Below are positions 7,287 to 64,000 of a stretch of 64,000 nucleotides of DNA, piece after piece. The DNA is from Chthoniobacteraceae bacterium. GTDB taxonomy: Bacteria > Verrucomicrobiota > Verrucomicrobiia > Chthoniobacterales > Chthoniobacteraceae. A program made the position numbers and the translations under genes. The stretch is taken from positions 1 to 64,000 of the forward strand of contig JAQGOL010000029.1 in the NCBI GenBank assembly GCA_028293625.1, read 5' to 3'. The notes beneath the pieces are model-generated. The model was not told the DNA's origin. It did not search any database and was given only the letters and a program-made list of their open reading frames with translations. How positions within the stretch are numbered: the first letter of the stretch is position 1; each line of letters starts with the position of its first letter.

Positions 7287-8120
7287 CTAATGCGTCATGG
7301 AATAAAAAATGATATTGATGCCAAGCGGGTAGGCTTTTTTTTCCGAGAACTCGCGAAAATAATAGGCGCTTTCCCCTTCGCGCTCCCAGCCGTCGCCATT
7401 GTCGGTGTTATGACAGATCACCACGCAGAGGCGGTTTTTGTCGTCGTAAATGCCGCGGATATGGGTGTCGTGCGCATCCGGCCGCTCCCAGGTAACTCCC
7501 GTAAACTCGCTGCGCGCTCCCAGACGGATATTCGGCACCTGAAGGTTCAAGGTTTCCGGCAGCACAAACACATTATGGAAAATCTCGTGGTCACGCGGCA
7601 GGTCGACAATCGGCCGGTCGGGAAAGACTCTTTTTAATTCACCAGCCAGATTGTCCCATTCCTCTTCGCCCCAAAAATCGTCCACCATCAGAAAGCCGCC
7701 ATTAAGCAGGTAACGGCGGAGAATCGGCACTTCGGGCTCGGTGAATTCCAGGTTGCCCGGTTCAACGATGTAAATGAAGGGGTATCGAAATAGTTCGGGA
7801 TCGCCAATTTCCAATTGCCGGCCTTCGCGGACGACCTTCATGGAAGTCATCTGTTGCAAGCGAAAAGCCAGGTTGTAATCCGCGTCCGGGAAATCGGTGG
7901 ACCACTTCGCGCCGCCATCGCCGAAGCCGCCCCAGTTGCGACCCGAGCGCGAGCTGTAAATGATTCGCACAAACGTGAAGACGTCCTTTTCGAATCCGGC
8001 GGCATTGGTCCATTGCGGCGTATCCTCGTCACGCGAGCCTCGGCCGAATCCGCGCTGCGCAAAGACGGTGCTCCCAGGCAAAAGAGCAAGACCGGCCAGA
8101 ACGCACGTGAGCAACTTCAT
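7287..8120 (-). CDS. DUF4159 domain exported protein
   Basis: 277 residues from an ATG that lies one base after the stop of the upstream gene; an upstream in-frame ATG would place 45 residues inside that gene and was not used. The protein starts with a signal peptide (about residues 1-21, cleavage near VFA-QR). The rest is a DUF4159 domain, with the motif LLNGGFLMVDDFWGEEEW and a C-terminal segment ending GINIIFYSMTH. DUF4159 genes are regular members of MoxR/Bat operons. No catalytic function is established; the fold is thought to resemble glutamine-amidotransferase-like domains. Confidence 0.87.
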   Translation of the reverse strand: MKLLTCVLAGLALLPGSTVFAQRGFGRGSRDEDTPQWTNAAGFEKDVFTFVRIIYSSRSGRNWGGFGDGGAKWSTDFPDADYNLAFRLQQMTSMKVVREGRQLEIGDPELFRYPFIYIVEPGNLEFTEPEVPILRRYLLNGGFLMVDDFWGEEEWDNLAGELKRVFPDRPIVDLPRDHEIFHNVFVLPETLNLQVPNIRLGARSEFTGVTWERPDAHDTHIRGIYDDKNRLCVVICHNTDNGDGWEREGESAYYFREFSEKKAYPLGINIIFYSMTH

Positions 8121-22904: not shown

Positions 22905-22963
22905 TTTTTTAGAGGGGGCGAGAAGGTGCTTTTGACCGACATGGTTGTCAACGGAAACTTCGA

Positions 22964-52107: not shown

Positions 52108-53499
52108 TTATCTTGGCGGCGAGAGTCGATAGTACGCGCGTGGAAAAGTGATCGCATCCGCGTCGGTAAACTCAGTCAAAGCGCCCGCGCCACCGACTGC
52201 CCCGATGATTTCCCATTGCGGAGCCTGTAGTTGAAGCGAGCGCTCAACGAGATAGCTTTGAGTTAATCCGGCACTCCAGTTTAACTTCAATCCATTCGCG
52301 TCCCGGCGCGCCGCGGTGAGATTCGTCGGCAACGTTTTGGGCAGGATATTATTGACCGCAAAAACAAATCCGCTGTCGTTGCTGACTCCTATCAGCGTGC
52401 CATTTGGAGCAATTGTCACGGCGCGTGGTTGCGAGAAATAATCATTTCCAACCAAAGGCGGATGCTGCCCGTTAGGAAGGCTATAAGTATCCTTGGTTCC
52501 TTTGCCTTGCAGATACTTGTGAAGCACACCGGCCGTGTCGACATACCAAATGCTCCCCTCGGTATGCGCGCATAGGAAATACGAGCCATCCGCCAAAAAC
52601 GCGACGCCGCGCACACCATCAATAAAGCTGGCAATGGCCAGTCGTCCATCTGCAGCAGGGAATTGCGAGATGTTTCCCGTCATCCGGGTGCGTTGTTCAG
52701 GGCCGTCTATCCGCCAGAGCCCCGTCTTAAGTTTGTTGGCGCTGTCATCCTCGGCGCGATCGGTTACATAAAGTTTGCCGTCGATAGGATTGACGGCAAT
52801 GTTGCCTGGATTGCTAAATCCGACTGCGCGGCTGCATACAATTTCGATTCCGCCAAAAGGCGTCCATTTTTTGACGGTGGCACCATCGGTCGTGGTGCTT
52901 GGAGCAAAGATATACTCGTGAGTGTAGTAGATAAGCTGTTCGTCATTGCTTACCCACAATGCGCGTCCTGAAGAATGCCAGTTCGGATCCCGATCATTGA
53001 CGACAGTCGTCATGATCCCACTGGTATCCACTCGGCGGATCCGGTGGTTGCCCGGATCAAGAATGTAAACTACGCCATTGGGCAATACATAAAGCCCATT
53101 TGGGCCATCGAGGTGAAGTGTCGTAGCCAATGCCGGTCCGTCCCCGTTGTTGCCTTCCATGTGCGTGCCCGCAAAAGTATGGATTCGGCCATCGGTGGTT
53201 ACTTTTAAAACCGAGTGGCTGGCTTTATCGGCAATGTAGATATTCCCAAACGCATCGGCCGCCGCAATGTGAGGGTTGGAAAGGGTCACAGAAGAGGCGA
53301 GCGCGCCTTCAAAGGCTGGAACCCAAAAATTGATCGCATTGCCACTGCCATCCTTTGTTTCAGACTGGCGCACGCCCGCGATCGTTGTCGTCGTGCCGTA
53401 ACCGGCCGTAAAATCCTGAAACGTGGTGGCAATCGCAACTGCGCCAGTCAGTCCAAACAGGGCTGCAGCAAGGAGGGTTTTAAAGAAAAGTCCGATCAT
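52108..53499 (-). CDS. Exported NHL-repeat beta-propeller protein, copy 1
   Basis: 463 residues with a signal peptide (about 1-24). NHL-type blades recur through about 60-380, for example FGNIYIADKASHSVLKV, NGVVYILDPGNHRIRRVD and DGKLYVTDRAED. The C-terminal 80 residues form a fibronectin-like or autotransporter-free end module closing on YYRLSPP, common in verrucomicrobial exported proteins. Copy 2 lies upstream at 53602-54987 with the same architecture and high similarity, so this is a tandem duplication. Likely a periplasmic or secreted sensor or binding protein; no catalytic site is visible. Confidence 0.82.
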   Translation of the reverse strand: MIGLFFKTLLAAALFGLTGAVAIATTFQDFTAGYGTTTTIAGVRQSETKDGSGNAINFWVPAFEGALASSVTLSNPHIAAADAFGNIYIADKASHSVLKVTTDGRIHTFAGTHMEGNNGDGPALATTLHLDGPNGLYVLPNGVVYILDPGNHRIRRVDTSGIMTTVVNDRDPNWHSSGRALWVSNDEQLIYYTHEYIFAPSTTTDGATVKKWTPFGGIEIVCSRAVGFSNPGNIAVNPIDGKLYVTDRAEDDSANKLKTGLWRIDGPEQRTRMTGNISQFPAADGRLAIASFIDGVRGVAFLADGSYFLCAHTEGSIWYVDTAGVLHKYLQGKGTKDTYSLPNGQHPPLVGNDYFSQPRAVTIAPNGTLIGVSNDSGFVFAVNNILPKTLPTNLTAARRDANGLKLNWSAGLTQSYLVERSLQLQAPQWEIIGAVGGAGALTEFTDADAITFPRAYYRLSPPR

Positions 53500-53601: not shown

Positions 53602-54987
53602 TTATCGGGGCCGAGAAAGCCGATAAAAAGTGTGCCCAAGCGTTCCTGCGGTCTGATCAATGAACTCTGTCACACCACCATTCCCCGATGTCGCGCCCAC
53701 GATTTCCCACGGGCTCGACTGGAGATTTTGTGTGCGTTCCACCACATACGCCTGATTGAGGGCGCCCTTCCAATTCAGATGGAGCCCTTCCGGATCCCGG
53801 CGCACGGCTTTCAAGTCGAGAGGCAGAAGCTGTGAAAGAATATTTTTGACCTCAAAAACGTAACCACTGTCATTGCAAACGCCCAAAAGACTGCCGTTCG
53901 GAGCGAGGGTGACTGCGCGAGGTTGGCAAAGATAATCCTGAGCCGCGATTGGGGGATGCTGCCCGTTTCCGAGAAGGTAAGTGTCTTTGGATCCCTTCCC
54001 TCGGATATAGCGATGTAATACTCCGCCGCTGTCTACATACCAGATATTCCCGTCCTTGTGGCCGCATAGGAAGTAAGCGCCATTGGAAAGAAATGCGATT
54101 CCCCGAACGCCGTCGATGTAGGAGTTGAGCGCCAATTGTCCATCAAGGGGGAGTGGTTGCGTAATGTTGCCGGTCACGCGCGTGCGCTGGTCGATTCCGT
54201 CTATCCGCCATACCCCGGTCGCCATTTTGGATGAATCGTCCTCGGCTCGATCAGTGACGTAAAGCTTGCCGTCGATCGGATTGACGGCAATATTTCCGGG
54301 ATTACGGAAGCCGACGGATTTACTGCAGACAATCTCGATCCCTCCCCCAGGTGTCCATTTTTTAACGGTGGCTCCATCCGCGATGATACTTGGCGGCACG
54401 GGAGCAAATTCATTGGTATAATAGATAAGCTGTTCATCGCGGCTAACCCAAAGAGCGCGTCCAGACGGATACCAATTCGGATCAGGATCGGTAACGACGG
54501 TAGTCATTATTCCGTTCTTATCTACCCGCCGGATACGATGATTGCCCGGATCAAGCAAGTAGACCGTTCCGTCAGGAAAAACATAGAGGCCATTCGGGCT
54601 GAAAATTTGCAGGGTAGTAGCGGGAGCGGGTCCGTCGCCGTTGAATCCGGCAGCATGCGTTCCGGCAAAGGTATGGATTTTTCCATCTGTGGTAATTTCA
54701 AGAATCGCATGGCTGGCTTTGTCAGCGATGTAGATATTGCCAAATGCGTCCGCAGCCGCCATGTGCGGGTTGGATAGCGATGTGATGCTGGCCTGAGCGC
54801 CTTCAGAGGAGGTGTTCCAGAAATTAATGGAGGTGCCGTCGCTATTGGTGGTGCTGGAGTGGGCAATGCCGGCAAGCGTTGTGGCGGTGCCAAAACCGGT
54901 TGCCAGATCCTGAAACTCATCTGCGAACGCCGCGGGGGTATACAATGCAACCAGGAAAGTAACAATTAACGAGCTGAGCTTGTGCAT
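53602..54987 (-). CDS. Exported NHL-repeat beta-propeller protein, copy 2
   Basis: 461 residues from the ATG at 54987. A signal peptide (about 1-22, ending AAFADE) is followed by the same blade series as copy 1 (for example NPHMAAADAFGNIYIADKAS and DGTVYLLDPGNHRIRRVD) and the same end module (FYRLSRP). The two proteins are collinear over their full length with most blade cores identical and loops diverged. The gap between them is 102 bases. The duplication is probably old enough for the copies to have separated in ligand choice. Confidence 0.82.
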   Translation of the reverse strand: MHKLSSLIVTFLVALYTPAAFADEFQDLATGFGTATTLAGIAHSSTTNSDGTSINFWNTSSEGAQASITSLSNPHMAAADAFGNIYIADKASHAILEITTDGKIHTFAGTHAAGFNGDGPAPATTLQIFSPNGLYVFPDGTVYLLDPGNHRIRRVDKNGIMTTVVTDPDPNWYPSGRALWVSRDEQLIYYTNEFAPVPPSIIADGATVKKWTPGGGIEIVCSKSVGFRNPGNIAVNPIDGKLYVTDRAEDDSSKMATGVWRIDGIDQRTRVTGNITQPLPLDGQLALNSYIDGVRGIAFLSNGAYFLCGHKDGNIWYVDSGGVLHRYIRGKGSKDTYLLGNGQHPPIAAQDYLCQPRAVTLAPNGSLLGVCNDSGYVFEVKNILSQLLPLDLKAVRRDPEGLHLNWKGALNQAYVVERTQNLQSSPWEIVGATSGNGGVTEFIDQTAGTLGHTFYRLSRPR

Positions 54988-55164
54988 ATAAGACGGCAAA
55001 CGTGTGGCGTTTGCGTCACGCTAACGGCCGCGTTGCCTGTGTCAATGTGCGCTCTATGACGGTTTTGACATGTGACTTCCACAGGCCATTTTGTTACATC
55101 CAGTTGTCCCTGGCATGTTCCGTTACGAACATGGCCTGGCCTGATATCGTTTGGTTTCCTCATT

Positions 55165-56178: not shown

Positions 56179-57534
56179 TTACAATTCCACGGCGGTCAAA
56201 CGGACACTGAAAACGGTCCATTCCGCGTCCGACTCAAGCAGATCCAAATCGCCTCCATCGTGTGCTCTTGCGAGTTCACGCGCCAAGCTCAATCCGAGAC
56301 CCCGGCCTGGAATGCCCGCGTTTAAGTTGGCGCGAAAGAAGCGTTGGAAAAGCTGCGGGCCGTGTTCAGGAGAAATGCCCGGCCCGGTATTAGCCACTGT
56401 GATATTGACCGCATCGCCGCGGCGCTTTGCGGAAATCTTAACTTGTCCTCCGGCGTGGTTATACTTGATCGCATTATCGAGCAGGTTGAGAAGGATCTGC
56501 GTCAGGCGTCCTCCATCCACCTTCCCATAAAGCGTGTCCGGCAGATCGGATTCGATCAAAATGTCATGTTTTTCCGCCATGATGCTGGCGTCGTCGGCGC
56601 ATGCGCGAACGATCTCGACGATATTGGTTTCGGAGAAGTCGAGCCGGAGCTGGCCTGCGTCGGCGCGTGAAAGTAGAAGAAGGCTTTCTGTAATCGACGT
56701 TAATTGCCTGGTTTGTTCAAGCAACGCGGCTACGGCGATTTGATCGCACGGCTGGAGTCCGGGCGATTCGATGAGATTTTCAATTCCGATACGCAACAGG
56801 GTCAGGGGTGTTTTGAGTTCATGAGAGGCGTCTGCGCTAAATCGCATCGCCTGTTTAAAGCTCACGTCAAGCCGATCAAGCATCGCGTTTAGCACCGTGC
56901 TGAGGCGTCGTATCTCATCAGGAGGAACGGGCACAGGCAGGCGTCGATCAAGACGCTCGGCGGTAATCTCTTCCGCCGCGCTCGTAATGGCGCTTACCGG
57001 CGCAAGCGCTTTTTTGGAAAGCCACCAACCGCCGCAGATCACTGTCGCGATCAACAGGGGAGATCCGGCCAGGAACCCAATCAGGATGCGGCCGGTATCC
57101 TCGTCTATTTCATCAAGGTCGGCTGCCAGGTAAAGGACCAGCCCTTTATCCTTAAAAACACCGAGCCGAACCGCATCGTTGGCGATCTCCACGTTGCTGA
57201 ATCCGCGGGGAGCACCGCGCACGGCATCGTTCCCCATGTTGGTGGAGCGATATAGAATGCTTCCGCTGGCACTGGCGATTTCGACATACCTTTCGGTAAG
57301 AGTTAGCGGCAGCATCTCTTTGACGTGGCCGGAAACGGTCCAATCAACGGGTGCATGCCGCCGTGAATACTCGCCAAAAAAGATATGCGCCTCATTTTGA
57401 AGCTGTTCATCCAGCGCTTCAAACTGTTCGTGCCTAACAAAAAGACCGGCGGCCACTCCGCATAATAACAATGCAGCGCCAACCGTTAGTGCCGACCAAA
57501 CGGCCAGTTTTATTCGGAGAGGCCAGTGTTTCAT
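56179..57534 (-). CDS. CusS-like sensor histidine kinase
   Basis: 451 residues. Two membrane helices (about 9-33 and 149-171) enclose a periplasmic sensor of about 115 residues. A HAMP domain (about 172-225), the H-box with His238 in SADASHELKTPL, the N-box LLNLLDNAIKYN and G-boxes GPGISPEHG and GRGLGLSLA complete a class I kinase. The layout and helix pattern fit heavy-metal sensor kinases of the CusS/CopS type. It overlaps the response regulator gene by four bases, so it is translated as a pair with it. Confidence 0.9.
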   Translation of the reverse strand: MKHWPLRIKLAVWSALTVGAALLLCGVAAGLFVRHEQFEALDEQLQNEAHIFFGEYSRRHAPVDWTVSGHVKEMLPLTLTERYVEIASASGSILYRSTNMGNDAVRGAPRGFSNVEIANDAVRLGVFKDKGLVLYLAADLDEIDEDTGRILIGFLAGSPLLIATVICGGWWLSKKALAPVSAITSAAEEITAERLDRRLPVPVPPDEIRRLSTVLNAMLDRLDVSFKQAMRFSADASHELKTPLTLLRIGIENLIESPGLQPCDQIAVAALLEQTRQLTSITESLLLLSRADAGQLRLDFSETNIVEIVRACADDASIMAEKHDILIESDLPDTLYGKVDGGRLTQILLNLLDNAIKYNHAGGQVKISAKRRGDAVNITVANTGPGISPEHGPQLFQRFFRANLNAGIPGRGLGLSLARELARAHDGGDLDLLESDAEWTVFSVRLTAVEL

Positions 57535-58205
57535 TCAGGTGCTTTCATCATGTAACCAACACCGCGGGAAGTATGTAGCAATCGGACTTCGTAACCCGCA
57601 TCAACCTTTTCCCGGAGCCGCTTGATGTAAACATCAACAACGTTGGTGCCCGTATCAAAGTGATAGTTCCAAACATGTTCGCACAGACTCGTCCTCGAAT
57701 GCACGATTCCCGGCGCGCGCATAAAGAACTCCAGCAACGCGAACTCGCGCAGAGCAAGATTGATTGGTTGTCCCGCGCGGATGACCTCTCTTGTAAGCAC
57801 GTTCATCGTCAGATCAGCAACCTTCAGCAGCGTGCTTCGTTCGGGCGAGGTGCGTCGCGTCAACGCCGCGATACGCGCGAGCAATTCGCGCATCGAAAAT
57901 GGTTTGGCCATGTAGTCGTCCGCGCCCAGTTCCAATCCTTCGATCCGTTCGGAGACTTCACCGCGGGCCGTCAGAATCAAAACGGCGGTAAAGATCCGGT
58001 TGGCTCGCAGAAGTTTAAGAACGCTCAGCCCGTCACGGCCCGGCATCATGACATCCAGGATGATGGCATCATATGGTTCCGACGAAGCGAGATGCAACGC
58101 GCTCTCGCCATCGTATACCTCGTCCACCACATAGCCGGCTTCGCAAAGCGCTTTTCGGATAAAATTGGAAACTTTCTTTTCGTCTTCGGCAAGCAGGACA
58201 CGCAT
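57531..58205 (-). CDS. CusR/CopR-like response regulator (OmpR family)
   Basis: 224 residues from the ATG at 58205 (MRVLLAEDEKKVSNF). The receiver has the acidic pair in the LAEDE segment, phospho-acceptor Asp51 in IILDVMMP, Thr78 in LTAR and Lys100 in AKPF. The C-terminal winged helix (about 130-222) ends with the usual VDVYIKRLREKV and TSRGVGYM strand. The sequence fits the CusR/CopR group. A 16-base operator-like palindrome of the CusR type lies in its divergent promoter region at 58517-58532, with related sites ahead of two nearby genes. Confidence 0.92.
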   Translation of the reverse strand: MRVLLAEDEKKVSNFIRKALCEAGYVVDEVYDGESALHLASSEPYDAIILDVMMPGRDGLSVLKLLRANRIFTAVLILTARGEVSERIEGLELGADDYMAKPFSMRELLARIAALTRRTSPERSTLLKVADLTMNVLTREVIRAGQPINLALREFALLEFFMRAPGIVHSRTSLCEHVWNYHFDTGTNVVDVYIKRLREKVDAGYEVRLLHTSRGVGYMMKAPE

Positions 58206-58693
58206 GGCAGGGGTGGGATCGGGCGAATATGACAGGTCTTTCGGGCATCGCCAGTTCGCAGAAAGTTGCGGGCTCAAACTAATGAAATCGGCCTGCTTGG
58301 TGTAGAACAAAAAATTGGAAGTAAACGATGAATGGACGGTGTCTGAAGTTGTAGCGTAGGTTTGCGTCGAGCTGCATTACTGATTTGCAAGATGAGCAGC
58401 CGCCATCGGAGGCACGGTCGTGCATAGCGTCAGCGATATTTGGCACTGATAAACGGGGAAGGATGCCGAGTGCTCAAGCTTTAGCACTTGAGATATGACA
58501 GAATCAGTTCATCCCAATGACAGATCTGTCAGAGTTCGTCGCCACGAAGTGCCTTCCATTTTGCTCACTTGAAAGTTGCTGATTGGCGGCGACGATTTAT
58601 TTTGACGCCACTGACCGCGGCAGCGATGAACGGGCGCAATTTTCAGCGACTCGCAATCTGTCACTGTTTTCAGATCTGCCATCCACCCCTTCA
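58206..58693. other. Divergent intergenic region, response regulator / methyltransferase
   Basis: 488 bases without a convincing gene. It contains the perfect CusR-type palindrome at 58517-58532, an extra half-site TGACAGA at 58496-58502 in the same phase, and a CTCAAG...CTTGAG inverted repeat at 58473-58492. No clear -35/-10 pair could be fixed by eye. Confidence 0.6.
58517..58532. promoter_or_regulatory. Putative CusR/CopR box 1
   Basis: ATGACAGATCTGTCAG contains a perfect 14-base palindrome, TGACAGATCTGTCA. The layout matches the CusR/CopR consensus ATGACA-N4-TGTCAT. It lies 161 bases upstream of the methyltransferase start and 311 from the response regulator start. Confidence 0.7.
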
Positions 58694-59338
58694 ATGCTAA
58701 AACTTGACTCCGCTCCAAGGGCGGAAACGCAATCGATCAGTCCGAAGCTGGAACGCCTCGGACGCAGTTTTTTCCCGCGGAGGCTTCTTATTGGGCTGTT
58801 CGCGGTGGTGCCGGCGGCCTTTATTGTGCAGCCGGGGAATTACTTTGGTGAGTACCAGGCTGTCGGCATCGCAACCTCATTACTGCTTGTCATCGGAGGG
58901 CTCGGATTGCGCGCGTGGGCAGCATCGAGGGCAGGGGACCACACGCGCACGATTCATATTGAGGCTCCGGCGCTCGTCACTGGCGGACCTTATTCTATGG
59001 TGCGGAATCCGATCTACTTGGGAACTATCATTCTGGGACTTGGAATGGTCGGATTGATTGGTGACCCTCGGATGCTTTTTCTGTGCGCGATCACATTTGC
59101 GGCGCTCTACTTCGGGATCATCCCTGCGGAAGAGCAATTTTTACGGCAGAAGTTCGGGGCTGAGTATATTCGCTATTGCTTTGCCGTGCCTAGACTTCTT
59201 CCCCGGTTGCAACCGTGGTCCGAGGCACGCGTTGGAAGAGTAAATTGGGAGCCTGCGCGTGGTGAATTGTATTTGGCTTTGCTCTTGGTGGCAATCTATG
59301 GATTTCTGCGGTTGGCGGCATGGTTGCGTGGTTTTTAG
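58694..59338 (+). CDS. ICMT/PEMT-like membrane methyltransferase (CzcN-like)
   Basis: 214 residues from the ATG at 58694; the frame is open 37 codons upstream but without a matching start context. Four or five membrane helices are visible. The SAM-binding signature of the isoprenylcysteine/phospholipid methyltransferase group is GGPYSMVRNPIYLGTI at about 98-113, with E-x-x-FLRQKFGAEYIRY and VPRLLPR near the end. Proteins of this fold (CzcN, NccN) occur in heavy-metal efflux determinants of Cupriavidus, which fits the setting next to a two-component pair and an RND pump. The acceptor substrate is unknown. Confidence 0.85.
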   Translation: MLKLDSAPRAETQSISPKLERLGRSFFPRRLLIGLFAVVPAAFIVQPGNYFGEYQAVGIATSLLLVIGGLGLRAWAASRAGDHTRTIHIEAPALVTGGPYSMVRNPIYLGTIILGLGMVGLIGDPRMLFLCAITFAALYFGIIPAEEQFLRQKFGAEYIRYCFAVPRLLPRLQPWSEARVGRVNWEPARGELYLALLLVAIYGFLRLAAWLRGF

Positions 59339-59436
59339 CAGGTTGGAACCATTCCCTGGGGGGTGGGGGGGCGGATGAAGTTCTGCGCATGCAGAGAGTT
59401 CAACTCTTGCGTTGCATGGAATCCAATTGGTTGATT

Positions 59437-59452
59437 CTGACAGAAATTTCAT
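59437..59452. promoter_or_regulatory. Putative CusR/CopR box 2
   Basis: CTGACAGAAATTTCAT keeps the TGACA-N4-TGTCAT layout with one changed base in the second half-site (TTTCAT). It lies 110 bases upstream of the PepSY-like gene. The neighbouring sequence 59355-59372 is a G-run (tgggggg, tggggggg) that could form a quadruplex. Confidence 0.55.
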
Positions 59453-59562
59453 GCTGCCAGAGTGGCTATTGTTCCCCCTAACTGCTTGTTTTTAAGGTTA
59501 CGCCACATCCCGGCTTCGGCCTTTTGTTGCCAGGCTGTATGCGCTCTCCAATTTAAATCCTC

Positions 59563-60030
59563 ATGAAAACCTTATTTTTTGCTGTAGCTGCATTAGCCGT
59601 TTCCAGCCTGTTTTTGCATGCTGATGACGCTGCTGTGGCCGCTAAAATGGCCAGGATCCCGGCTCCGGCCGCCGAAGCGCTGAAAAAAGCAGCGGGAAGC
59701 GCGAAGATAGAAACCTTGGCCATCGAAAAGGACGGTAAAGTTACAATCTACGAAGTGGAACTTGTGGAGGCTGGCCAGCCTAACCGCGAGGTTTCTGTCA
59801 AGGCAGATGGCTCCATTAATGCCGAGGAGGAAACCGTGCCGATGGAAAAAGTTCCGGAGGCTGTCCGCAAGGCGATTGAAGCCGGCGCAAAGGAGAGCAA
59901 GATTGAACGGGTTCAGAAGATTAAACGTGCGGGGGGTGTGGTGACGTTTGAGGCTCTTTACGTTAAGAAAGGAAAGAAGACAGAGGTGGAGTATCTTGAG
60001 GACGGCAAGCTAAAGCCCGAAGAGAAGTAA
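59563..60030 (+). CDS. PepSY-like periplasmic protein
   Basis: 155 residues with a signal peptide (MKTLFFAVAALAVSSLFLHA). The mature part has two related halves of PepSY character: an AAEALKKAAGSAKIETLAIEKDG unit near 36-58 and VPEAVRKAIEAGAKESKIERV near 101-121, each followed by beta strands with an EVELVE or EALYVK sequence. Such small proteins often accompany two-component systems and metal efflux operons and may bind metal or modulate a protease or kinase. It is preceded by CusR-type box 2. Confidence 0.75.
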   Translation: MKTLFFAVAALAVSSLFLHADDAAVAAKMARIPAPAAEALKKAAGSAKIETLAIEKDGKVTIYEVELVEAGQPNREVSVKADGSINAEEETVPMEKVPEAVRKAIEAGAKESKIERVQKIKRAGGVVTFEALYVKKGKKTEVEYLEDGKLKPEEK

Positions 60031-60115
60031 TGACTGGTTGTCTGAATCGGGAGTCAGTGCATCTTTGAGAGCATTCTGACGGCTGGCAGGTAGATGGATG
60101 CATCGCACGATGCGA

Positions 60116-60131
60116 ATGACGCGAATGTCAT
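60116..60131. promoter_or_regulatory. Putative CusR/CopR box 3
   Basis: ATGACGCGAATGTCAT matches ATGACA-N4-TGTCAT with one changed base (G for A at the sixth position). It lies 49 bases upstream of the outer-membrane beta-barrel gene, the best placed of the three for direct promoter control. Confidence 0.65.
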
Positions 60132-60180: not shown

Positions 60181-60936
60181 ATGTATCGCACCCCTTCCAA
60201 ACTCCCGGGCTTTCTGGTCGCTCTTTTTCTGACTTCAACCTTCCTGATGCCAGTCCGAGCGGATCTGGTTCTTGAAACCGAGACTGCCGAGCTTGGCCAT
60301 AAAGGCGAGGGGCTTTTCAGCATGGCACTGCAATTTGAGAAGGAGAAAGACGGCAGCCGGACGATTTTCACCCTCAACCAGTTTGAGTATGCAGTTACCG
60401 ACCGTGGCGAAATTCTAATCGAACCCTTTTTTAAGGAGTGGGATCGGCCAAAAGGTGAAGCGCGGTTTAGCGGGATGGGAGATCTGGAGATCACACCTTC
60501 TTACATGGTGGTCCTGGAGAAGCCGTACGTGCCAGCTATCGTACTGGCGTTTAAGTTGAAGGTGCCGACTGCTAAAAACCGCAACATCGGAACAGGCAGA
60601 TTTGACTATCAGCCCTATGTCATCTTCGGGAAGAGCTATGGGCACTGGGTGTTCAACGCGAACTTTGGCTATGATATCATCACTTCTCCGGCTGGGGAGG
60701 GATTGAAGAACCAATTTATCTACGATTTTTCTGTGGAATACAAAATCACTGAAAGCTGGAGTGTCTTTGCGGAAGTATTTGCCAACAGCAAACCGACCGT
60801 AGAAGAAAAGGGGACATTCGCCGGCGCTATCGCCACGGAATATCAGTTCGGGAAGCATTTTAATGCTTTTGCGAGCGTTGGTTATGACAGCGATCACCTC
60901 CTTAATTTCCGGCCCGGAATTAATATTCCTTTTTAG
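60181..60936 (+). CDS. Outer-membrane beta-barrel protein (MetA-pathway-like)
   Basis: 251 residues. A signal peptide (about 1-27, ending PVRA-DL) precedes alternating amphipathic strands; a terminal aromatic residue (NIPF) suits Bam-dependent insertion. The layout resembles the Phenol_MetA_deg or transporter-like outer-membrane family seen beside metal-efflux genes. Characteristic pieces are GDLEITPSYMVV near 100 and FNANFGYDI near 160. It is preceded by CusR-type box 3 and followed 81 bases later by the TolC gene, so the efflux genes may share its transcript. Confidence 0.75.
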   Translation: MYRTPSKLPGFLVALFLTSTFLMPVRADLVLETETAELGHKGEGLFSMALQFEKEKDGSRTIFTLNQFEYAVTDRGEILIEPFFKEWDRPKGEARFSGMGDLEITPSYMVVLEKPYVPAIVLAFKLKVPTAKNRNIGTGRFDYQPYVIFGKSYGHWVFNANFGYDIITSPAGEGLKNQFIYDFSVEYKITESWSVFAEVFANSKPTVEEKGTFAGAIATEYQFGKHFNAFASVGYDSDHLLNFRPGINIPF

Positions 60937-61017: not shown

Positions 61018-62301
61018 ATGAACCGCCGACATTTTACGACTCTGTTATTGGCTCTCGGATGTGCCGGATGCGTGCCATTTATGCCGCATCCTGTGGATCC
61101 TTTGGCGAGTGCCGCGCGGCTGAGTTCAAGCCGGCTTGCAGAGAGAGTCTGGACTTTGGAGGCGCTTGAGAAAGAGGCAACACGCACTCATCCTACCGTC
61201 CAACTGGCCGAGGCGCGGTATGAGACGGCACGGGCGGCAATCCGCACCGCGCGTGAGATGCCCAACCCGACCATTGCCCTGACTCCACAAATTGTGACCC
61301 CGTATACAAGCTTGATGGCGGGCACGTATGGGGTGGACTTTGATTGGACCATTGAAACGGCGGGCAAACGTAATCGGCGTTCCGAAATCGCGCATGCGAA
61401 CGCCCGGGCGTCGGCGGCGAACGTCGTGGAAGCCGTATGGAGCGTTCGCGCCGCGGTGCGAAAAGCTTTTCTCGAACTTTACGCCGCTGAACAGCGTTCC
61501 AGGCTGCTCTCTGATGCGGTGACCAGGCAGGACGACTTGCTGAAGGTTTTGGAGCAACGAATTCTCGCGGGAGAAGAAGCGCGTGGTGTCATGGCGCAAC
61601 CGCGCCTTTTGCAGGCGCAGTTGAGGTTACAGGCGTCGGATGTATCAAGAAGCCTGGCGCTGGCCCGGGTGTCGCTTGCCGAGGCGCTTGGGATGGGCGT
61701 GAACGGTCTGGCGGGTGCGCGGTTTTCGTATTTTGCTTTTGAAAAACAACCATCCATTCCCTCCTCGGCACGGCGCGAAGCATTGACGCATCGGGCCGAT
61801 GTGCTGGCGGCATTGGCAGAGTATGCTTCGGCCGAAGGGGCGTTGCGGCTTGAAATAGCCAGGCAATATCCCGATCTGCACCTCAATCCCGGCTATCAGC
61901 TTGATCAGGGGGTTAACAAATGGACGCTCGGACTGGGATTCACACTTCCTATCCTCAATCAAAACCGTGGCGCGATTGGGGAAGCCGAAGCAAAGCGCAA
62001 GGAGGCGGAGGTGAAGTTTTATGGCGTCCAGGCGAAGGTGCTTGCTGACTGCGATCGCGCGGTGGCCTCGCTCAAAGCCGCGCGGGCCAAGGTGGCTGTC
62101 ACTGAGACCCTGCTCGCCGAGCAGGCTCGCCAGATTTCTTCGGAAGAGCGCATGGTGGCCGCGGGCGAAGGCGACAAGCTCGCCCTGTTAAGCGCCCAAG
62201 TGGAACGCGCGACAACTTTAACTTCACGCCTCGATGCCCTTGTTGAACTTCAGTCCGCTTTGGGCGCGCTGGAAGAAGCAACGCAAACACCCCTTAAATG
62301 A
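61018..62301 (+). CDS. TolC-family outer membrane efflux protein
   Basis: 427 residues from the ATG at 61018, whose N-terminus is a lipoprotein signal with lipobox LGCAGC. Two outer-membrane-efflux repeats (about 50-240 and 250-425) carry long coiled helices and beta segments, with the conserved NPTIALTP and LGLGFTLPILNQNRGAIGEAEAKR motifs. This is the outer-membrane channel of a CusCBA/CzcCBA-type tripartite pump. Its stop overlaps the start of the adaptor gene by four bases (ATGA). Confidence 0.93.
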   Translation: MNRRHFTTLLLALGCAGCVPFMPHPVDPLASAARLSSSRLAERVWTLEALEKEATRTHPTVQLAEARYETARAAIRTAREMPNPTIALTPQIVTPYTSLMAGTYGVDFDWTIETAGKRNRRSEIAHANARASAANVVEAVWSVRAAVRKAFLELYAAEQRSRLLSDAVTRQDDLLKVLEQRILAGEEARGVMAQPRLLQAQLRLQASDVSRSLALARVSLAEALGMGVNGLAGARFSYFAFEKQPSIPSSARREALTHRADVLAALAEYASAEGALRLEIARQYPDLHLNPGYQLDQGVNKWTLGLGFTLPILNQNRGAIGEAEAKRKEAEVKFYGVQAKVLADCDRAVASLKAARAKVAVTETLLAEQARQISSEERMVAAGEGDKLALLSAQVERATTLTSRLDALVELQSALGALEEATQTPLK

Positions 62302-63326
62302 AGAAAATCGCTCATTTTTTACTCACGTTTTGTGTCCTGGCCGCACTTGGCTGGACGCTTTGGGTGGGCGTGAGAAAACAAAAGGAAAAACCCGGAATCG
62401 AAGAAGTCGCGCCCGAAGAGGCGGGCAAGGAGGAGGAAAAACCGGAGGATTTTGTTGTTAAGCTTGAAAAGGAAAAATGGGTGGCGCTCGATATCGATAA
62501 GGCCGAGCCCGAGAAGGCCATGCTCAGACCGCAACGCATCGCATTTGGGCGCGTGCTCGATCCCTCGCCGATTGTCACCCTTGACGGCGAACTGGCTGCC
62601 GCCGACGCCGCGCTTGCCGCCTCCAAATCTGAATTTGAGCGCACGCAGGGACTCTTTAAAACCGGGGAAAATGTTGCCCGCAAGGTCCTGGAAACCGCGC
62701 AGGCGCAGTTCCGCGCGGATGAAATCAAGGTAAGCGGTCTGCGGCGTAGCGCCCTGATGACATGGGGTCCCGATTTTGCGGCCTTCGACGCCGCGGCTCG
62801 ACATGAGTATGTGGAACGATTTGTGCGGGGTGAACGGGCTTTGGTTCGCGTCGATATTCTTCCGGGCGATGTGCTCGCCGAACAGCCAAAAAGCGCGCGA
62901 CTGGTAGTGCTGGGACGCGAGGATCAACCCATTGAGACCAAGGCAATTACCACGGCCTCCGACGTCGATATCAAAACACAGGCGCAAGGCTTTATTCTTG
63001 AGGTCGACAAACCGCCCTTTCCTTTACGACCCGGCATGGCGCTTACCGCCTGGCTTGAACTCGCCGAGGAGCCGCATCCGGGCTTTGCCATTCCGCGTTC
63101 GGCCATTCTCCGCCACGATGGCCGCGCCTGGGTATATGTGCAGGAAGAGGAGGAGAAATTTGTGCGCAAGCCGGTCACGCTTGGCTCTCCGTTGGACGGA
63201 GAAAAAGGATGGTTTGTCGCCGAAAAAGGAGGCGGGATCAAACCAGACGACTTGATTGTCGTTACAGGATCGCAATCGCTTTTATCGGAAGAATTGAAAG
63301 CGCAGGGCGGAGGGGAACCGGACTGA
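62298..63326 (+). CDS. RND-pump periplasmic adaptor (membrane fusion protein)
   Basis: 342 residues. A single N-terminal membrane helix (about 5-22) and an acidic linker are followed by a short helical hairpin (about 95-140, ELAAADAALAASKSEFERT and GENVARKVLETAQAQF), then beta-barrel and membrane-proximal domains. The protein is shorter than CusB-type adaptors and has no visible Met or His metal ligands of CusB type. It shares overlaps with both neighbours (TolC and RND), typical of a tripartite pump operon. Confidence 0.85.
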   Translation: MKKIAHFLLTFCVLAALGWTLWVGVRKQKEKPGIEEVAPEEAGKEEEKPEDFVVKLEKEKWVALDIDKAEPEKAMLRPQRIAFGRVLDPSPIVTLDGELAAADAALAASKSEFERTQGLFKTGENVARKVLETAQAQFRADEIKVSGLRRSALMTWGPDFAAFDAAARHEYVERFVRGERALVRVDILPGDVLAEQPKSARLVVLGREDQPIETKAITTASDVDIKTQAQGFILEVDKPPFPLRPGMALTAWLELAEEPHPGFAIPRSAILRHDGRAWVYVQEEEEKFVRKPVTLGSPLDGEKGWFVAEKGGGIKPDDLIVVTGSQSLLSEELKAQGGGEPD

Positions 63327-64000
63327 TGCTCTCCTCGATTGTCAGAGTATCCTTGAGGCACCGCGGGATAGTGATGGTGCTGGCCGTTGCGTTGCTGGTT
63401 TGGGGCAGTTACGTCGCTTCGCGTGCGCCGCTCGATGTATTTCCGGAATTTGTCCAGCCGCAGGTAACCATCCAGACCGAGGCCCCTGGTCTCTCTGCGG
63501 AGCAAGTCGAAGTGCTCGTCACGCGACCCGTGGAAAGCTCAATCAACGGCGCGGCGGCCCTTGATTCAGTCCGCTCGGAGAGCATTCAGGGACTTAGCGT
63601 CGTGACAGCGGTTTTTAAAGAAAACACCAATATTTATACGGCCCGCCAGGCGATGGCTGAAAAGCTCGGCACCCTGACGCGCCAGCTCCCCGACGGAGTA
63701 CGCGCACCGACTCTTTCCCCATTAACCTCGTCCACGATGGATCTCCTCAAGATCGGCCTGGTCTCAAAAACGATGTCTGGCCGCGACTTGCGCACGTTTG
63801 TTGATTGGACGCTCAAGCCGCGTTTGCTGGCGGTGTCGGGAGTGGCGCATGCCAATGTATTTGGAGGTGAAATTGAACAACTCCAGGTGCAGGTGAGTCC
63901 TGAAAAACTCGCCGCGTTCGACCTGACGCTGACCGATATTCTTGAGTCGGCCAAGGCGGCAACCGGTGTGCGCGGAGCCGGGTTTATTGACACGCCCGCC
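63326..64000 (+). CDS. HME-RND heavy-metal efflux pump (CusA/CzcA family), partial
   Basis: 225 residues visible, cut by the right edge. The start overlaps the adaptor stop (TGATG). The first membrane helix (about 13-30) is followed by the porter-domain opening DVFPEFVQPQVTIQTEAPGL and a VTRPVESSINGAA and SIQGLSVVTAVF block, which are signatures of CusA/CzcA proteins. The proton-relay helix and metal-binding residues lie beyond the window, so the metal cannot be assigned. Confidence 0.93.
   Translation, partial: MLSSIVRVSLRHRGIVMVLAVALLVWGSYVASRAPLDVFPEFVQPQVTIQTEAPGLSAEQVEVLVTRPVESSINGAAALDSVRSESIQGLSVVTAVFKENTNIYTARQAMAEKLGTLTRQLPDGVRAPTLSPLTSSTMDLLKIGLVSKTMSGRDLRTFVDWTLKPRLLAVSGVAHANVFGGEIEQLQVQVSPEKLAAFDLTLTDILESAKAATGVRGAGFIDTPA

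Follow-up and report, generated by a model that had tools for sequence, protein, structure and literature searches.

The response regulator encoded at one end of a short gene set in a Chthoniobacteraceae genome is fairly likely to bind palindromic boxes of the form TGACR-N4-TKTMA, through which it would switch on a PepSY gene and the genes of an outer-membrane barrel and RND efflux pump, as judged from the sequence of the window (the whole 64,000-nucleotide stretch of DNA that was analysed) and of related loci. Under this scheme the neighbouring kinase would phosphorylate the regulator, which would bind the boxes as a dimer; box 2 would serve to activate the PepSY gene on the opposite strand, box 3 the genes for the barrel, TolC-type channel, adaptor and RND pump, presumably as an operon, and box 1 the methyltransferase gene, the regulator gene itself or both. 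The PepSY protein is probably periplasmic, where it could bind metal or modulate the kinase, the latter role being borrowed from the DbfQ/DbfS model of PMC12714742. The features concerned are collected in Table 1.

Table 1. Genes and candidate operator sites of the putative box-controlled set, in window coordinates
Feature	Position	Strand	Basis or remark
Sensor histidine kinase (HAMP, HisKA, HATPase_c)	56179..57534	-	domain matches
OmpR/CusR-type response regulator	57531..58205	-	family matches; 45% identical to E. coli CusR
Weak box-like site, 8/10	58230..58243	+	24 bases before regulator ATG
Box 1, perfect TGACA-GATC-TGTCA	58518..58531	.	between regulator and methyltransferase genes
PEMT/ICMT-family membrane methyltransferase	58694..59338	+	family match; upstream start 58583 also possible
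Box 2, TGACAGAAATTTCA	59438..59451	+	upstream of PepSY gene; 1 mismatch
Protein with two PepSY/BLIP-like repeats, signal-like N-terminus (by eye)	59563..60030	+	predicted fold, Pfam match below cut-off
Box 3, TGACGCGAATGTCA	60117..60130	+	upstream of barrel gene; 1 mismatch; conserved in three relatives
Outer-membrane beta-barrel, Phenol_MetA_deg family	60181..60936	+	50.6 bits, cut-off 22
TolC-type outer-membrane channel	61018..62301	+	OEP, 113.5 bits
Periplasmic adaptor	62298..63326	+	TIGR01730 58 bits, below cut-off 94.9; no Pfam match
RND pump	63326..64000	+	runs beyond window end; 1033 aa on contig from start taken at 63326

The three sites, one perfect and two with a single mismatch, lie exactly where an earlier note on this DNA had placed them. 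Their ends fall 162, 111 and 50 bases ahead of the ATGs at 58694, 59563 and 60181, and they stand beside a CusR/CzcR-like two-component system. Allowing up to one mismatch to TGACANNNNTGTCA, the window contains four sites, boxes 1-3 and one at 22937-22950, against a mean of 0.98 in dinucleotide shuffles of the window, of which 3 in 100 reached four. Across the genome (6.83 Mb) there are 139 such sites, or one per 49 kb, somewhat rarer than the estimate of one per 34 kb on which the earlier note had relied, while a reversed-pattern control gave 45. When 139 sites were placed at random, a trio within 1.6 kb arose in 6.6% of simulations, and clustering alone is therefore weaker evidence than had been held when three sites in 1.6 kb were taken as unlikely to be chance. 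The positional part of that argument is stronger: the three 250-bp promoters contain three sites of at least 9/10, whereas 400 column-permuted motifs averaged 0.065 and never exceeded 2. The clustering is suggestive and the position of the boxes at promoters is strong evidence, and it is the promoter position together with conservation in relatives that makes the cluster convincing. A chance cluster, for which the simulated frequency of such trios leaves some room, and with which a count of intergenic sites not far above expectation also agrees (12 against about 6.6 for the relaxed pattern TGACRNNNNTKTMA), is nevertheless very unlikely, given that the boxes are conserved in relatives and that the simulated trio chance for the relaxed pattern is 0.75%, though this pattern was widened to fit, after the relatives had been inspected. 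The three boxes are, on these comparisons, probably real operators. The weaker site ahead of the regulator may reflect autoregulation or chance.

The relaxed pattern fits 67 places genome-wide, 55 of them in coding frames and the remainder intergenic, of which three are boxes 1-3; the chance expectation given above is based on an intergenic share of 9.9% in the examined loci. No metal families were seen near the other intergenic sites, at least one neighbour having been Pfam-scanned for eight of the nine (all except C31:865419). The scanned neighbours comprised a glycosyltransferase, a LuxR-type regulator, DUF7133, CotH, lipase, hydroxyacid dehydrogenase, metallo-beta-lactamase fold and ABC ATPase proteins, and one neighbour had no Pfam match. 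Of the five exact TGACANNNNTGTCA sites, four are outside the locus; codon-scored gene calls put three of these in coding frames and the last, C9:152205, between genes and close to one of CotH type. As no metal gene was seen at the scanned intergenic sites elsewhere, the box-controlled set looks local, and the wider metal regulon that the earlier note had envisaged, with a genome-wide motif scan as its check, is rejected for now. A scan for sigma-70 promoters gave three against 2.1 expected, none of them useful.

Conservation of the boxes was most apparent at loci that carry the barrel. A barrel at least 60% identical to that of the window occurs in three of the 39 other genomes of the family, at loci L068 (genome G028), L069 (G017) and L070 (G018), and a search of the order (213 genomes, E 1e-15) added no other. 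All three relatives have a box ahead of the barrel gene, reading TGAGCGATGTGTCA in L068 (8/10; p 0.11, not significant alone), TGACCGAACTGTAA in L069 and TGACGAGAATGTAA in L070, with the box centre 55, 44 and 54 bp, respectively, from the ATG as compared with 57 bp in the window. The cores of these boxes are identical between genomes at 7-9 of 10 positions, as against only 10-20 of 56 in the flanks. A pattern derived solely from the literature, TGACANNNNTGTMA, was built from the boxes of CusR (E. coli) and CopR (P. aeruginosa) quoted in PMC11195947. It found seven sites of at least 8/10 in ten promoter regions of relatives, whose bounds were set by hand after some of the sequences had been inspected, where shuffles gave 0.97 with a maximum of 5 in 500; with uniform 250-bp promoters it found eight, where 400 permuted motifs averaged 1.9 and 0.25% reached eight. 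The spacer between the regulator and PepSY genes of L068 has two TGACGAG...GTTCA elements, only 7/10, and the best site in the barrel promoter of L071 is likewise 7/10. There is no site of at least 8/10 before the PepSY gene in L080 (G032), L081 (G003, same genus) or L083 (G026), at which the PepSY, TolC and adaptor genes are kept and no barrel match was found. The comparison of intergenic regions among relatives, put forward earlier as a check, bears out a box at each relative with a barrel at least 60% identical but not at these three loci, and since none of the three barrel-less pump loci tested has boxes, these appear to go with the barrel-bearing version. Searches of the phylum with the barrel (E 1e-20) and the adaptor (E 1e-40), each over 387 genomes drawn from a larger group, returned the own genome only, and a scan of genome contigs gave one weak locus.

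The regulator groups with the heavy-metal response regulators, as supported by family comparison and by the presence of a TGACA-type operator sequence near its gene, a feature by which membership in this group was judged. Its earlier description as CusR-like stands in so far as its best NCBIfam model is TIGR01387 (CusR/CopR/CzcR), it has the identity to CusR given in Table 1 and its recognition-helix stretch, TNVVDVYIKRLREK, is similar to TNAIDVAVKRLRGK in E. coli CusR, but its score of 245.4 bits is below the cut-off of 279.2. The best NCBIfam match of the kinase is the heavy-metal sensor kinase model TIGR01386 (189 bits, below the cut-off of 292.55). None of the TIGR01387 matches in the own genome exceeds the cut-off; there are 140 of these in its 6.8 Mb, mostly covering the receiver part and many in long frames. 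Published boxes of CusR and P. aeruginosa CopR (TGACAAnnTTGTCA and CTGACAn5GTAAT), as given in PMC11195947, match the core of the boxes studied here. One palindrome serves CusR, CopR and CzcR in P. paraeruginosa according to the same text, and the box therefore does not name the metal. Near the kinase lie two tandem NHL-propeller paralogues (52108-53499 and 53602-54999, both on the minus strand), and the frame directly upstream of the PepSY gene in L080 (983-2440) ends in an NHL-propeller-like sequence by eye; with such sequences at both loci, the NHL-propeller family may travel with the pump.

Boxes were also sought at other loci of this regulator family. From 43 regulator matches in the family, 32 further loci were examined, that is, all but the window, L068, L071 and eight of the lowest-scoring ones. 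Sites of at least 9/10 were as numerous in 21.2 kb of intergenic sequence as in 273.6 kb of coding sequence, at four each (Fisher p 0.0015). The 300 bp upstream of the 32 regulators show no significant enrichment (nine sites against 5.6, p 0.10), with two sites against 0.41 at the threshold of 9/10 (p 0.06). One of the four intergenic sites is TGACAATTCTGTAA, 104 bp upstream of the regulator in L138, where a regulator 55% identical to that of the window is followed by a kinase and by TolC, adaptor and RND matches; the others precede the L152 regulator, a further L152 gene (site at 8014) and a PepSY-like gene in L139. The regulator of L139, L140 and L143 is in each case preceded by a gene judged PepSY-like by eye from its translation, and this gene in turn by a TGACAG box (8-9/10), although the box of L140 and L143 may lie in a coding frame; the PepSY-like gene of L143 has an NCBIfam PepSY match of 31.6 bits, below the cut-off of 60. 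L140 and L143 share an identical 21-base block, AATGACAGCATCTTCATTCTC, ahead of the PepSY-like gene and between flanks that differ; it could be either an operator or a short piece of coding sequence. Of the two regulator paralogues that rank next, L063 lacks a site of at least 9/10 and L064 has one, inside an open frame. In L127-L137, with regulators 55-65% identical, other TGAC/TTCA/TTAC elements can be seen by eye in the promoters, and those upstream of the regulators in L130-L137 include TKAC...TTCATTAC-like elements, unlike the studied box, which are perhaps another operator type of the regulator family.

The PepSY identity assigned in the earlier note is sustained by a predicted fold and by synteny. 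The sole Pfam match of the window protein is PepSY_like, below cut-off, and six of eight aligned homologues match this family at E 0.01. An AlphaFold2 model (pLDDT 86.5) contains two repeats and is matched by Foldseek to BLIP-like/DUF2874 periplasmic proteins, which supports a PepSY fold. Homologues occur at the pump loci of G028, G017, G018, G003, G032 and G026, that is, in six of the seven relatives with an adaptor match, in G026 at about 4.5 kb from TolC; in the seventh, G023, the contig begins inside TolC. PepSY genes lie near two-component systems far more often than expected by chance, and DbfQ acts on its own kinase DbfS, as reported in PMC12714742. Together with czcN under CzcR, described in PMC10127602, such pairing of a PepSY gene with a two-component system is known, contrary to the earlier impression that PepSY and methyltransferase members of a regulon of this kind were little described.

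The methyltransferase is, on sequence comparison, the weakest member of the putative set. Its likeness to CzcN amounts to 32% identity over 173 aa with CzcN of pMOL30, but a tblastn search found no match in ten pump-related or regulator-related loci, and Cupriavidus is absent among the 23 plasmid records returned by tblastn at 1e-5. Relatives of the methyltransferase occur in five of the 39 other family genomes; the only one of the five with an adaptor match of this pump is G017, where it lies on a different contig. Three of the five relatives adjoin a PnpS/PhoR-like kinase (below model cut-offs; 2-4 kb of flank). Membership is possible, since czcN depends on CzcR in Cupriavidus, where its promoter carries a regulator site (PMC10127602). 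Box 1 may instead act on the regulator gene, or may be the remnant of an older regulator/PepSY spacer. A scheme in which only boxes 2 and 3 drive their neighbours, box 1 being an autoregulatory site or spacer remnant and the methyltransferase an unrelated insertion, falls just short of an even chance: the divergent regulator and PepSY genes of L068, with no methyltransferase match between them, and the distribution of the methyltransferase relatives are as this scheme would have them, whereas box 1 is the sole perfect palindrome of the three and lies 312 bp from the regulator as against 162 bp from the methyltransferase, and czcN is under CzcR control in Cupriavidus (PMC10127602). In G017, a SAM-dependent methyltransferase-like frame (by eye; L069 2410-3030, plus strand) lies between the PepSY and barrel genes, and this spot thus seems to accept insertions. 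Under the preferred reading, in which all three boxes are operators of the regulator, the earlier proposal that the regulator controls this set and the pump retains the CusR-like regulator and the conserved barrel box, but is weakened as regards the methyltransferase and a wider metal regulon.

The beta-barrel recognised earlier is a Phenol_MetA_deg protein well above the cut-off (Table 1). Two relatives encode a small protein without a Pfam match next to the barrel: in L070 (297-632, minus strand) the two genes are divergent, and in L071 (867-1181, minus strand) the small gene separates the barrel gene from that of the regulator. The full-length pump has TIGR00914 (CusA/CzcA heavy-metal RND) as its best model, at 676.1 bits and below the cut-off of 701.45, and the best multidrug model reaches 485 bits. 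Of its solved relatives, the zinc pump ZneA ranks first (450 bits), followed by CusA at about 373, with the best multidrug chains at about 269. At the aligned columns of CusA M573, M623 and M672, which we take to be the methionine triad of that pump, it has G, Q and E and no methionine. Several acidic columns among what we presume to be the zinc-binding residues of ZneA look kept in a hand-read alignment, and these were not counted. The fourth transmembrane segment reads AIGVVVDDAI, rather than DFG or AVG with a single D. By the rule given in PMC10127602, DFG marks divalent pumps, AVG monovalent pumps and AIG with a double D organic substrates, and DFGX3DGAX3VEN is given for HME1/HME2 in PMC3637150. 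Without the CusA triad and with AIG...DD in TM4, a copper or silver pump is unlikely.

The same features raise the possibility that envelope stress or an organic compound, rather than a metal, is the signal for the system, the pump exporting an organic or metal-organic substrate. This account is tentative and the less probable one: the TM4 motif has the organic-substrate form (PMC10127602), methionine is missing from the three CusA columns, and none of regulator, kinase and pump reaches the heavy-metal cut-offs, yet the pump scores higher with TIGR00914 than with the best multidrug model, and ZneA ranks ahead of CusA and the multidrug chains. A divalent metal or metal complex would be a little more likely than a purely organic substrate. 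It is doubtful, though conceivable, that the box array under a CusR/CzcR-type system controls a hybrid pump together with the PepSY protein and a dedicated barrel, the exported species being a metal complex and not the free ion; such a pump would, if this is true, be a heavy-metal RND by family with an organic-type proton relay motif in TM4.

Among known systems, CusRS-CusCFBA of E. coli is similar in having a CusR-type regulator with the kinase gene beside it, divergent pump genes and a TGACA-N4-TGTCA core in the cusR-cusC spacer, but here there are three boxes in three spacers as well as PepSY, barrel and methyltransferase genes, and the pump, 27% identical to CusA, lacks the methionine triad of the latter. 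The CzcRS system of Cupriavidus metallidurans, with czcN and czcP, offers in czcN a relative of the methyltransferase with a regulator site in its promoter (PMC10127602), but the czc cluster includes czcI, czcD and czcE, whereas the genes here match other families, and the pump is 31% identical to CzcA. In DbfQRS and BqsRS/PA2658-type modules a small PepSY gene likewise stands beside kinase and regulator genes (PMC12714742), whereas the PepSY gene here stands with an RND pump, has its own box and encodes two repeats. ZneA has DFG...DGA in TM4, by alignment, where the pump here has AIG...DD. AgrA of C. metallidurans shares organic/metal hybrid features and the DD motif, as described in PMC10127602, although by motif description it has AVG rather than AIG. 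Among the matches listed by a literature search naming Verrucomicrobiota, as judged from titles and the beginnings of abstracts in a source that leaves subscription papers largely uncovered, none was on such boxes.

The boxes provide a candidate operator, open to experimental test, for a two-component system of metal type in Verrucomicrobiota. Their conservation would link the putative pump operon with a PepSY protein and an outer-membrane barrel by more than gene order, and the mismatch between the type of regulator and the motif of the pump is relevant to the assignment of substrate classes among RND pumps.
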